Source of the DNA: a virus
Strand: one strand, 5' to 3'
IMG/VR virus record: IMGVR_UViG_3300042557_000594
Location: 1 to 31,571 of that record
Length of the DNA stretch: 31,571 nt
Part shown: positions 1 to 31,525 of the stretch, one piece after another
How positions within the stretch are numbered: the first letter of the stretch is position 1
How the letters are laid out: each line of letters starts with the position of its first letter
The notes under the pieces: generated by a model
Told to the model about the DNA's origin: nothing
Seen by the model: only the letters and a program-made list of their open reading frames with translations
Databases searched by the model: none
Program-made: the position numbers and the translations under genes

Positions 1-226
1 GATGCAACAGGCAGCAGATAAGTTAAGCATCAAAGAAGAACCGGTGCGCGAAGTGAAAAGGGAAAATCCACCACCACTTGAAATTGCACTGATGCGCGAA
101 TACGATGCGCTGCCGCAATGGGATAATAATATCCACTTCCGGGTGTACAAAAACAAGCCGTACCAATTCACCGAATACAGGCAGGAACGTTACAGGGAAT
201 TAATCGAAACGCAAAATGAATACTGA
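1..226 (+). CDS. C-terminal part of replication-associated protein (cut by contig edge)
   Basis: This is the last 74 codons of a gene whose complete copy lies at 30836-31525; the two are the same locus on a circular genome. The protein end is rich in charged and aromatic residues (YQFTEYRQERY) with no recognisable catalytic motif. It differs from the other copy at three residues (NNIH here, NDMR there), which reflects sequence variation between the two contig ends. The stop TGA at 224-226 overlaps the start of the methyltransferase gene by 11 bp, so the two are translationally coupled. Function is discussed under the complete copy. Confidence 0.85.
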   Translation, partial: MQQAADKLSIKEEPVREVKRENPPPLEIALMREYDALPQWDNNIHFRVYKNKPYQFTEYRQERYRELIETQNEY

Positions 227-6648: not shown

Positions 6649-6894
6649 TCATTGCTGCACCTTGCGATAGCCATGCTTCCAAAGAAAACGACCTAAAGCT
6701 TCGCCTTCAGCATCCACTTTCTCCTCACTCCACTCCGGCTGGATGTGGTGAAGGTATTCGTGAATGAGAACAATCATGTAACGCATAGGCGGTAACGTTG
6801 GATCTATCTCAATAACGTTGTCGCAGTACAATCCATCCGCACGTTCCCTTCCCAACTTTCGATGGATAACTTTTGGATGTTGCTTGCGTTTCAT
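6649..6894 (-). CDS. Minimal HExxH zinc metalloprotease-like protein
   Basis: An 81-residue protein with HEYLHH at residues 45-50, preceded by the hydrophobic stretch RYMIVLI. This is the zinc-binding HExxH helix of metallopeptidases; an acidic residue in KVDAEGE (about 60-64) could be the third ligand. It is far smaller than SprT (about 150) or typical gluzincins, but short phage proteins of this type are common. The substrate is unknown. It is the last gene on the leftward strand, 86 bases beyond the phosphoesterase. Rightward genes converge on it from the other side. Confidence 0.7.
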   Translation of the reverse strand: MKRKQHPKVIHRKLGRERADGLYCDNVIEIDPTLPPMRYMIVLIHEYLHHIQPEWSEEKVDAEGEALGRFLWKHGYRKVQQ

Positions 6895-6950
6895 GTTTAT
6901 ATTTGCCGCGTTTGTGTACTATTGTTAATGTTTTTGTTATTTGATTGAAC

Positions 6951-28803: not shown

Positions 28804-29356
28804 AAGAAGAACAACCGAACTACCCACACGTAGTGATATTTTGTACATCATGAAGAACTTTGACCACATGAGCTTTGAGCAGATGCGCAAAGACCTGAAT
28901 GTGACCAATGGCAAACTCATTAATTGGTGCAAGCTGGTATTCAGCAATGATGATAAGGAGAAAAGGTGGCGCGAAATCGAGCATAACTTGAATCAAATGG
29001 AATTCCATGAAGAATTCACTGACTCGATGCAAAGCGAATACGATGTGCATGACATCAAACGTGTAGGAGATAAACGCTACTATACGGTTAAGCGCAAGAT
29101 TGTGAATGAATACCGCATCTGTTACCTTGTTACACTTGATTATACTACCAATGTATTAGTGCGCTTTGATATTCCTGTCGAACGCAACAGCATAAAGTAT
29201 TGCCCGGTAGCACTTGGCTGTGATTATGAAGTGCATTCGGTTGGCGGTTGGGAGTATTCACACCTTGAAAGGCATCTACCTGTGGTTACCATTCAAGCAG
29301 ATGAAGACTACGTTGGCAAATTTTGGTTAGCAATGTCAAACATGGTACCTGCATGA
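28787..29356 (+). CDS. Hypothetical protein with N-terminal helix-turn-helix (189 aa)
   Basis: A 189-residue protein. The N-terminal part (RSDILYIMKNFDHMSFEQMR then KDLNVTNGKLINWCK) reads like the small homeodomain-type helix-turn-helix common in phages (a conserved 'M-S-x-x-x-x-x-L-N-V-x-x-x-x-I' pattern). The rest is a beta-rich domain with strands such as RICYLVTLDYTTNVLVRFDI. The function of the second part is unknown. ATG 28796 is an alternative start that reduces the overlap with the regulator from 17 to 8 bp. It ends in an ATGA overlap with the nuclease gene. Confidence 0.7.
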   Translation: MKAMNKRRTTELPTRSDILYIMKNFDHMSFEQMRKDLNVTNGKLINWCKLVFSNDDKEKRWREIEHNLNQMEFHEEFTDSMQSEYDVHDIKRVGDKRYYTVKRKIVNEYRICYLVTLDYTTNVLVRFDIPVERNSIKYCPVALGCDYEVHSVGGWEYSHLERHLPVVTIQADEDYVGKFWLAMSNMVPA

Positions 29357-29718
29357 AGCATGATGAAAGCAAGATGCAGCAGCGTTGCGTTGAATGGTTC
29401 CGCTATTCATTCCCACGCACACTCATTGCATCATTCCCAAACGGCGTGTTCATTGGTGGTACACCAATACAACGCGCTAAGCGGTGGAATATCTTGAAAG
29501 CAGAAGGAGCAATGCCCGGAATGCCTGACCTTATGGTTTGCATGTCATCAGGTGCTTATCATGCCCTGTTCATTGAGATGAAGACCGAAAAGGGTAAGTT
29601 ATCCGACACACAAAAAATCGTTCACGCGCAGCTTATCAATGCAGGTTACTGCGTGAAAGTCTGCAGATCATTCGAAGAATTCACATTAACTATCAAAAAG
29701 TATTTGGAAGCAGAATAG
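29353..29718 (+). CDS. VRR-NUC nuclease
   Basis: A 121-residue nuclease of the VRR-NUC family. FPNGVFIGG is near residue 30, PGMPDLMV (catalytic D) at about 59-66 and FIEMKTEKGKLS (catalytic E and K) at about 76-87, followed by QKIVHAQLINAGYCVKV. This is the standard E/D-ExK arrangement of small phage VRR-NUC proteins, which act on structured DNA such as branched junctions. ATG 29353 makes an ATGA overlap with the previous gene. The downstream promoter's -33 element lies within its last codons. Confidence 0.92.
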   Translation: MKHDESKMQQRCVEWFRYSFPRTLIASFPNGVFIGGTPIQRAKRWNILKAEGAMPGMPDLMVCMSSGAYHALFIEMKTEKGKLSDTQKIVHAQLINAGYCVKVCRSFEEFTLTIKKYLEAE

Positions 29719-29733
29719 CTTTGACTATATTTG
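29703..29733 (+). promoter_or_regulatory. Bacteroidota-type promoter before the replication genes
   Basis: TTTG (29703-29706) and TATATTTG (29726-29733) are separated by exactly 19 bp, a perfect consensus promoter. The predicted start (about 29738) is the first base of the stem of the structured leader. Confidence 0.88.
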
Positions 29734-29737
29734 CAAC

Positions 29738-29829
29738 GACTATCCGTATGAAAAAATTTACAAATCCCACCATTACCGCATTGCCATAGCACAATCGTGC
29801 GCGGATAGTCCTTTGCGTGTAGTGGTGGG
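29738..29829 (+). ncRNA. Structured leader RNA with interleaved stems (predicted pseudoknot)
   Basis: A 5' leader with two long helices that cross. Stem 1 is 29738-29746 with 29802-29810 (9 perfect pairs, GACTATCCG/CGGATAGTC). Stem 2 is 29766-29780 with 29814-29829 (15 pairs, one G-U, one bulged U at 29818). Between them is a 4-bp hairpin, 29789-29792/29797-29800 with loop AATC. The order stem1-5', stem2-5', hairpin, stem1-3', stem2-3' is a pseudoknot, or two mutually exclusive folds. The RNA begins at the predicted start site, and stem 2 ends 11 bases before ATG 29841. The topology is similar to HDV-like ribozymes and to Rep-control leaders of plasmids, but I see no P4 helix or conserved catalytic core of an HDV ribozyme. 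Confidence 0.7.
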
Positions 29830-29840
29830 TATTTACTTTT

Positions 29841-30200
29841 ATGATTACCAATTTTGAAGAATTAACTTGCGAATTGAACGCAGTTGAAATCGGTTTGCTG
29901 GATGCACTTACTGATATTCTAAACAATTACACCAAACAACAGCCAGCTAAAAGCGAAAAGATTGTAAGTGATATGAAAATGCATATTGCAAATCATTCTT
30001 TGAACGTTTCATTTAGTGGCGTAAGATTGCGTAAAATGATTAACCACTTACGTCGTGCTGGCACATTACCAATTATTGGTACAAGCAAAGGTTACTACGT
30101 TAGTTACAATCATGACGAAGTATGTAAGCAAATTCAAAGCTTAGTTGAACGCGCTAACTCGATTGAACATTGTGCTAAAGGTTTACTAAAATTTACATGA
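29841..30200 (+). CDS. Winged-helix DNA-binding protein (replication region)
   Basis: A 119-residue protein. The segment NVSFSGVRLRKMINHLRRAG, followed by TLPIIGTSKGYYVSYNHDEV, matches a winged-helix motif: a recognition helix and a GYY wing as in phage wHTH proteins that act in replication or packaging. A C-terminal helix carries ERANSIEHCAKGL. It is the first gene after the structured leader and precedes the replication protein by one base. A role in replication initiation or its control is inferred. Confidence 0.7.
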   Translation: MITNFEELTCELNAVEIGLLDALTDILNNYTKQQPAKSEKIVSDMKMHIANHSLNVSFSGVRLRKMINHLRRAGTLPIIGTSKGYYVSYNHDEVCKQIQSLVERANSIEHCAKGLLKFT

Positions 30201-30201
30201 T

Positions 30202-30960
30202 ATGAAGGATCCAGCGTTCCTTTTTTATTCTTCGGACTTTTTAACCGGAACAATGCTGTTGAACATGGAGCAGAAGGGTAAGTACATTACCCTTCTGTGC
30301 CTTCAGCATAATAAAGGTAGATTATCCGAAAAAGATATGTTGCACATATGTGGTTCATATGATGCTGATGTCTTCGGCAAATTCGTAAAAGATGAAGAAG
30401 GTTTCTTTTTTAACGAGCGTTTAAGCATTGAAATGCAGAAGCGTAAAGCTTATTCCGATAGCCGAAGAAACAATAGAACCAAAAAAGATGTGTCGAACAT
30501 ATCTAAAACATATGTTCCACATATGGAAAATGTAAATGAAAATGAAATTGAAAATATAAATGAAGTTATAGTTGAAGATGCAAATGAAAAAAAAGTAACG
30601 CGCAAACGATTCGTTAAACCTGAAGAACATGAAGTGTACAACTTGATGGGCGAACTGAATGCGACAGGTAAAAACTTTATGAGTGAAGATAGATTAGTTA
30701 ATTTCGCTCGCACCTTTATGGATCACTACGAAGCTAATGGCTGGATAGTAGGTAAATCTTCAATGAAGGATTGGCAAAGTACAGTGCGCAACTGGATGCG
30801 CAGAGAATGGGATAAAATTAAAAATCAAAAATCATATGGCAAACAATCAAATTCAACAGCAGACAGCATTGCAAAAGCTAATGCACTTTACGCCGAAGCA
30901 GTCGCTATCAGTCGAGCACGCGATAACACAAGACCAGATTGGTCTCCTTCGGAAGCTTGA
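30202..30960 (+). CDS. Replication initiation-like protein (DUF1376/O-like)
   Basis: A 252-residue protein. The N-terminal segment DPAFLFYSSDFLTGTMLLNM, followed by EQKGKYITLLCLQHNKGRLS, matches the DUF1376-type winged-helix of phage replication proteins. The middle is a variable, Asn/Glu-rich linker. A helical C-terminal domain (VYNLMGELNATGKNFM, DHYEANGWIVGKSSMKDWQS) resembles the domain that contacts helicase loaders. It would mark the phage origin. It follows the winged-helix gene by one base and overlaps the next gene by 125 bp in a different frame. Confidence 0.75.
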   Translation: MKDPAFLFYSSDFLTGTMLLNMEQKGKYITLLCLQHNKGRLSEKDMLHICGSYDADVFGKFVKDEEGFFFNERLSIEMQKRKAYSDSRRNNRTKKDVSNISKTYVPHMENVNENEIENINEVIVEDANEKKVTRKRFVKPEEHEVYNLMGELNATGKNFMSEDRLVNFARTFMDHYEANGWIVGKSSMKDWQSTVRNWMRREWDKIKNQKSYGKQSNSTADSIAKANALYAEAVAISRARDNTRPDWSPSEA

Positions 30961-31525
30961 CAAAGAAACAACCAAAGACAAAATCATTCAGTTGGTTACG
31001 CGATGTACTCAACTAATGAATGTGCAAAATAACATGAACGGTATGCAGATTGAATTCTGTGCTGAGAACATCATGGAAAAAATGTATATGTATTCACTTG
31101 AAGATGTGCAGCTGTGTTTAGATCGCGGTGCTATTGGTGCCTATGGTACAATTTATAACCGCATAGATCCTGCAACAATACTTGCATGGTTTCCTTTGTA
31201 TGATCAAGAACGTCAGGTATATGTAACTGCGAAAAAAAATGCTGAACAGCAATCAAACAACATCTACGAAATGTTCCAGCATCCGCAAATCATGGAAGCT
31301 ATGCAACAGGCAGCAGATAAGTTAAGCATCAAAGAAGAACCGGTGCGCGAAGTGAAAAGGGAAAATCCACCACCACTTGAAATAGCACTCATGCGCGAAT
31401 ACGATGCGCTGCCGCAATGGGATAACGATATGCGCTTCCGGGTATACAAAAACAAGCCGTACCAATTCACCGAATACAGGCAGGAACGTTACAGGGAATT
31501 AATCGAAACGCAAAATGAATACTGA
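30836..31525 (+). CDS. Replication-associated protein, helicase-loader-like by position
   Basis: A 229-residue protein (opening MANNQIQQQTALQKLMHFTP). It has the conserved-looking segment YMYSLEDVQLCLDRGAIGAY then GTIYNRIDPATILAWFPLYD, a pattern of Bacteroidota phage proteins (DUF6633-like) next to replication initiators. No Walker motif is present, so it is not an ATP-driven loader; it may recruit host helicase. The first 125 bases overlap the replication protein gene in another frame; a later start would lose the N-terminal helices. The gene crosses the circular junction, and its end is duplicated at 1-226. Confidence 0.6.
   Translation: MANNQIQQQTALQKLMHFTPKQSLSVEHAITQDQIGLLRKLDKETTKDKIIQLVTRCTQLMNVQNNMNGMQIEFCAENIMEKMYMYSLEDVQLCLDRGAIGAYGTIYNRIDPATILAWFPLYDQERQVYVTAKKNAEQQSNNIYEMFQHPQIMEAMQQAADKLSIKEEPVREVKRENPPPLEIALMREYDALPQWDNDMRFRVYKNKPYQFTEYRQERYRELIETQNEY

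Follow-up and report, generated by a model that had tools for sequence, protein, structure and literature searches.

The 5' end of a phage replication operon was found to carry a pseudoknotted leader which, from comparison of its homologues, is a conserved structured RNA family with compensatory changes beyond chance in all of its helices. The window, meaning the whole stretch of DNA analysed, is a 31,571-base IMG/VR virus record, and the nearest cultured phages by terminase are Flavobacterium phage 11b (48% identity) and Cellulophaga phi10:1. A VRR_NUC nuclease gene (29323-29718) and a winged-helix-like gene flank a promoter and the 92-nt leader, which together are best read as a portable promoter and 5'-UTR cassette of Bacteroidota phages that mostly serves the replication-initiation operon. 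The family is well supported, its pseudoknot is backed by covariation, and neither Rfam nor the cultured-phage and plasmid collections searched contain it.

Fold of the leader

An earlier reading, made from the letters of this one sequence (the sequence-only reading), had described interleaved helices of 9 and 15 pairs with an internal hairpin, and these helices were confirmed with the backing of covariation. Helix P1 joins 29738-29746 to 29802-29810 (GACTATCCG/CGGATAGTC) through 9 Watson-Crick pairs and is possibly lengthened by a T29747-G29801 wobble; its 5' strand is the predicted 5' end of the transcript. Helix P2 joins 29766-29780 to 29814-29829 through 15 pairs with U29818 bulged, and P3 is a 4-pair hairpin (29789-29792 with 29797-29800) of the form GCAC-AATC-GTGC at 29789-29800. 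The strands of P1 and P2 interleave, giving a three-stem H-type pseudoknot of about 92 nt at 29738-29829 of the + strand.

The A-rich linker J1/2 (29747-29765) ends in AAAU and is 18-21 nt long across members, J2/3 (29781-29788) contains a TTGCC motif that is invariant in the alignment described below (A1) but was part of the first search pattern, and the P1 and P2 3' strands are linked by CTT (29811-29813), which is invariant in A1 but lies inside the search patterns. An 11-nt A/U-rich spacer (29830-29840; consensus TATTTAGTTTT) leads to the start codon. The AAAU of J1/2 (29762-29765) can pair with AUUU at 29831-29834, which would extend P2 to about 6 nt before the ATG. AAAU occurs together with UAUUU in 90 of 101 members; as these bases hardly vary, the case for the extension comes mainly from the diverged member L379, which has a 6-pair version of it.

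The P1 duplex energy averages about -14 kcal/mol. The minimum-energy nested fold always chooses P2, the folding program used being one that cannot represent pseudoknots. Judged on the comparative evidence that follows, it is nearly certain that the leader is a real three-stem pseudoknot structure.

Homologues and covariation

Pattern searches of viral contigs gave at least 114 instances in the fetched loci, with at least 65 distinct cores. Alignment A1 was made from 65 distinct cores and contains only members with 9-of-9 P1 pairing; the position of the P1 5' strand was taken as the best-pairing one within a 30-nt range, a choice that favours P1, while P2 and P3 were not so chosen. Two further pattern matches scored 7 in P1 pairing and are unrelated chance matches. 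A set of 101 members was also used, for which the filter demanded G as the first base of P1.

The covariation test in homologues that had been proposed for this leader was passed decisively. In A1, 99.9% of 1814 pair cells are paired, with a single unpaired cell, and changes on both sides of the helix are seen at 16 of the 28 pairs. These fall in all three stems: 7 of 9 pairs in P1 (100% of cells paired), 5 pairs in P2 (100% paired, with the bulged 3' strand pairing throughout the alignment) and 4 of 4 in P3 (99.6% paired). The covariation score was 0.533, compared with 0.214 for shuffled alignments, a control that ignores relatedness (about 12 effective sequences at 90% identity), and at most 0.087 for slid partners, a control that does not ignore it and in which pairing falls to 29-50%.

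P1 in particular occurs as many nine-letter sequences (for example GACTATCCG, GCGTACCCT, GCTCGTTCG and GCGACTCAG), with the partner strand matching each. Of the 17 P1 alleles among the 101 members, GCTCCTTCC alone is not fully paired and needs one bulge. The motifs TTGCCATAR and CCTTT belonged to the first search pattern, so their conservation in first-pattern members is not evidence. Members found with the second pattern mostly retain TTGCC, and the bases that follow it vary (TTGCCG, TTGCCT, TTGCCATT).

Wobble pairs read as G-U on the + strand, which indicates that the sense RNA is the structured strand. A single-stranded DNA or cruciform element was considered and rejected on account of these wobbles and of the fixed spacing to the promoter and the ATG.

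The crossing helices had been taken as very unlikely to arise by chance in a single sequence, and whether this holds depends on the way of counting. Among 2000 dinucleotide shuffles of 351 nt, 81 (4%) had two crossing helices with no fewer than 9 and 11 pairs when G-U pairs were freely allowed; with few G-U pairs, the count was 6 of 5000 (about 0.1%). The single sequence is therefore suggestive by itself, and it is the covariation that proves the fold.

It had also been suggested that stem 1 and stem 2 form a switch, with one or the other, or both, in place. An either/or switch gained no support from the comparison, as no mutually exclusive conserved helices were found: the two crossing stems are both kept in all aligned members, their strands do not overlap, and no competing or alternative helix covaries, the top long-range covarying pairs all lying within P1, P2 and P3. 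As P1 and P2 are both kept and there is no third covarying helix, a standing structure is indicated rather than an either/or switch.

Promoter and boundaries of the leader

A pattern scan placed a predicted sigma-A-type Bacteroidota promoter at 29703-29733 (+), consisting of TTTG (29703-29706), a 19-nt spacer and the -7 box TATATTTG (29726-29733). The TAnnTTTG box ends exactly 4 nt 5' of the first G of P1 in 97 of 101 members, and the same distance is kept in the diverged members L379 and L161 (TACTATTG) and L334 (TATATTGC). In Flavobacterium psychrophilum, boxes of this type sit at -12 to -5 (PMC9723704), and on this basis the predicted +1 is G29738, the first base of P1. That base is G in 101 of 101 members, where the filter required it, and also in all of the at least 114 instances, where G was not required. 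The 4-nt spacing and the F. psychrophilum data both support the earlier proposal that a Bacteroidota promoter directs transcription from the 5' strand of stem 1. As in 5'-terminal stabilisers, the P1 helix begins at the predicted +1 with no 5' overhang. A perfect TTTG-N18-22-TAnnTTTG match occurs at just one other place in the window, 6872-6905 (+), and no copy of the pseudoknot was found there.

The 3' boundary is similarly constrained, since the distance from the end of P2 to the start codon is mostly 10-12 nt across members, though the first genes are unrelated. As the distances from promoter to P1 and from P2 to ATG are both tight, the element would be essentially the whole 5' UTR. It is an unusual trait for a leader to reach from the first transcribed base as far as the ribosome footprint, as this one appears to do from the predicted start.

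Proposed mode of action

The leader may act in cis to limit translation and to seal the 5' end of the messenger, a proposal given an even chance of being right. The comparison supports a transcription start at the first base of P1 and a leader that folds with P1 and P2 both maintained; between the end of the fold and the start codon there are about 11 nt, or 6 nt if the A/U extension forms. Because P2 lies inside the ribosome initiation footprint, the leader would probably set and limit how much the first gene is translated; with its 5' end locked in P1, the mRNA would probably also be shielded from decay that depends on that end. A ribosome on the short leader ORF before P1 closes could melt P2 and open the gene, so that translation would be mainly co-transcriptional; this is the least certain step. 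Structure around the start codon lowers initiation in Flavobacterium (PMC6847099), and the E. coli enzymes RppH and RNase E depend on single-stranded 5' ends (PMC3997798), although they may not be the enzymes of the phage host. A stable P2 near the AUG and protection of the 5' end push expression in opposite directions. The conserved unpaired bases in J1/2 and J2/3 may be the site of a bound factor that is outside this model.

The same 5' geometry could also reflect a pure 5'-end stabiliser or insulator, in which P1, without unpaired 5' nucleotides and packed against P2, gives a long-lived, context-independent mRNA whose translation is unregulated. This fits the coincidence of the first G of P1 with the predicted +1, seen in every one of the 97 members whose box is canonical, the freedom of the P1 sequence to vary while its pairing is maintained, the stability of the P1 duplex given above, and the stabilisation of E. 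coli mRNA by 5' secondary structure (PMC3997798). A simple 5' hairpin would suffice for such a role, however, and the crossing P2, the conserved unpaired bases and the fixed AUG distance are left unexplained, so it is considered rather unlikely.

The position of a leader RNA of about 90 nt immediately downstream of a phage promoter also recalls processive antitermination, in which the RNA would act on RNA polymerase for reading through terminators of the replication operon, as in phage HK022, where putL lies just downstream of PL (PMC9378689). The tight AUG distance of unrelated genes would not be expected in that case, and the topology differs, put being two stem-loops; this explanation is regarded as very unlikely. 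The constancy of the P2-to-ATG distance in front of unrelated genes is better accommodated by the cis-acting leader that limits translation and seals the 5' end.

Genes served and genomic context

In the window, the first gene (29841-30200, +; ATG at 29841) encodes a protein matching phrog_2113, called winged-helix-like in the sequence-only reading. The second operon gene (30202-30960, +) encodes a replication initiator-like protein beginning MKDPAFLFYSS, which matches phrog_15768 and, weakly, the primosomal protein phrog_9327. Neither of these served genes gave a match in Pfam and their PHROG matches are only weak or unnamed; the functional names given here to them and to the other served genes are partly putative, going by sequence type.

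The MKDPAFLFYSS-type protein is the direct first gene in 26 members and a MRESTVFYRSFYEA-type protein in 19, and further first genes are MKNNGY-type proteins, small ORFs, a ParB-like protein and helicases. The same P1 allele is found before many different genes. It had been claimed that the leader controls the replication genes, and most members do front a replication module, but some front a helicase, ParB-like, small ORF or HNH-type gene instead.

An element match was present in 36 of 48 contigs picked by terminase similarity and length regardless of the element; two of the 36 match only in part, at contig ends, and the 12 without a match include fragments that may stop short of the locus. 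In the near-complete relatives G027 and G048, which have no element, the nuclease gene overlaps the next gene, and this argues that the element is a modular cassette. The empty site lies at L285 4347 and L287 5875, where the next gene begins before the nuclease gene has ended. A diverged copy in a different phage (L334 4409-5003, minus strand) stands before a 163-aa HNH-type gene beside a terminase gene and suggests that mobile genes can carry the promoter and leader with them.

A single copy is the rule in complete or near-complete relatives. Two genomes have two copies each, one before a helicase gene and the other before the replication block: G006 (L290 2811-2900 and 5191-5282, with differing P1 alleles) and G010 (L289 7-98 and 2351-2440). 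A multi-copy repeat element was rejected, as genomes usually hold one copy and two were seen only in G006 and G010. Both ends of the window (2-226 and about 31300-31525) carry one and the same gene segment, in two versions that differ (DNNIHFRVYKN and DNDMRFRVYKN in the protein), which may be due to a mixed population or to imperfect circular assembly.

The gene content of the relatives bears on whether the pseudoknot is a translational operator, bound by a phage or host protein that represses or activates the replication gene in the manner of T4 gp32, whose target on its own mRNA is a 5' pseudoknot followed by an initiation region with less structure (PMC535899). The candidate binder is the phage SSB (1199-1429 in the window); an SSB-like protein is encoded in 16 of the 17 relatives tested, and the conserved unpaired bases could serve as a binding site. 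SSB is equally present in G027 and G048, which have no element, however, and it was not found in G007, which carries one. As the first genes served are unrelated, simple autoregulation is unlikely, and the operator explanation as a whole is thought improbable.

Leader open reading frame

A putative short ORF, MKKFTNPTITALP* (29748-29789, +), overlaps J1/2, the P2 5' strand and J2/3. It starts about 10 nt from the predicted 5' end, covers the P2 5' strand, and is kept as a 13-codon ORF in 89 of 101 members, in which its ATG lies 18 nt from P2; the spacer 5' of the ATG varies by 0-3 nt. In about 12 of 101 members the frame or the stop is disrupted; L032 lacks the ATG and L334 the entire ORF, so the ORF cannot be essential in every member. 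A leader peptide as the product was rejected, as its residues vary freely under P2 and the ORF is broken or absent in the members just named. The ORF may still act as a ribosome-entry device. In L091 and L379 it spans the entire pseudoknot and stops beside or overlapping the downstream ATG, which could be translational coupling or chance.

A leader ORF that spans the P2 5' strand, together with many P1 alleles, would also suit control of the plasmid kind, in which translation of the leader peptide opens the pseudoknot, an antisense RNA closes it and the P1 alleles act as incompatibility types; in I-complex plasmids leader peptide translation is required for Rep synthesis (PMC10286972). The pattern scan of the window gave no perfect minus-strand promoter, though, and the peptide is unconserved where the RNA varies and its ORF is lost in some members, making this explanation highly improbable.

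The ORF also raises the further, but unlikely, idea of a nascent-RNA timer. Ribosomes would enter at the leader ORF only until the P1 3' strand was transcribed, after which the closed knot would seal both the 5' end of the mRNA and the initiation region to leave a closed, stable messenger. If true, such a timer would require no protein repressor and would suit any downstream gene, and the leader would belong to a new class of phage leader RNA, one in which the replication initiator is translated essentially from nascent RNA.

Searches of known collections and significance

The HDV-like ribozyme fold is a nested double pseudoknot with a P4 and a catalytic C in J4/2. The stem order of the leader had been compared with this fold, and the strand order alone agrees with it; an HDV-like ribozyme was rejected because there is no P4 or J4/2, only CTT separates the P1 and P2 3' strands, J1/2 has 18-21 nt, and Rfam gave no match. 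In Rfam 15 no family reached its gathering cutoff, the sole weak match scoring 17.7 bits against a cutoff of 43, and nothing apart from this chance match appeared at E values up to 10. A self-cleaving ribozyme or metabolite riboswitch of a new class is extremely unlikely given this result and the lack of a competing helix in the alignment, even though the leader is a pseudoknot with conserved unpaired bases and the fluoride and preQ1-II riboswitches are three-stem pseudoknots (PMC11262651).

The cultured-phage and plasmid collections searched contained only short chance pieces, and Flavobacterium phage 11b and the first 50 kb of Cellulophaga phi10:1 had no element match. In the search for host or prophage copies, two exact-pattern matches among genome contigs were both due to chance, and none was found in 395 Bacteroidota genomes with stricter filters and no positive control. 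A literature search, with most subscription journals outside its scope, found no description of the leader. The earlier suggestion of a possibly new RNA class agrees with the Rfam comparison, in which no family matched, and the leader would be a new family of a known kind, the cis-acting phage leader RNA.

To our knowledge, Bacteroidota naturally lack Shine-Dalgarno sequences. The leader seems to be delimited by the transcription start on one side and the start codon on the other, which makes it an unusually clean case in which to study how translation and mRNA life are controlled from the 5' UTR in this group. It also looks like a modular expression part, moved by phages between unrelated genes, and could serve in Bacteroidota expression cassettes.

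Comparison with known systems

Like the T4 gene 32 operator, the leader places a pseudoknot 5' of the initiation region of a phage replication mRNA. The T4 pseudoknot is about 28 nt and is followed by more than 40 less structured nt (PMC535899), whereas the leader here has three stems in about 92 nt, stops about 11 nt short of the AUG and precedes unrelated genes. T4 has its pseudoknot before the SSB gene itself; the first genes here are of winged-helix, initiator, helicase and other types, and the SSB gene is several genes downstream of the element.

The 5'-terminal stem-loop stabilisers of the ompA leader type share with it pairing from the first transcribed nucleotide (predicted here), but theirs is a local hairpin and the 5' strand here pairs across a second helix in a pseudoknot. 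The I-complex plasmids have a RepZ/RepA leader pseudoknot, reportedly described by Asano and Mizobuchi in 1998 (cited in PMC10286972). This pseudoknot and a short leader ORF precede the initiator gene, which resembles the arrangement here; unlike in those plasmids, no antisense promoter was seen here by pattern and the leader ORF is dispensable in some members.

The strands of the leader follow the order S1a-S2a-S3-S1b-S2b, as do those of the coronavirus frameshift element. That element, together with the preQ1-II and fluoride riboswitches, is likewise a three-stem H-type pseudoknot (PMC11262651). The leader has no Rfam match to any of these families and, in contrast to the coronavirus element, lies upstream of the gene it serves and not inside a coding overlap. 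HK022 put is, like the leader, a phage RNA right after an early promoter (putL); it consists of two stem-loops of about 70 nt and acts on RNA polymerase (PMC9378689), whereas the 3' boundary of the leader described here is tied to the start codon.
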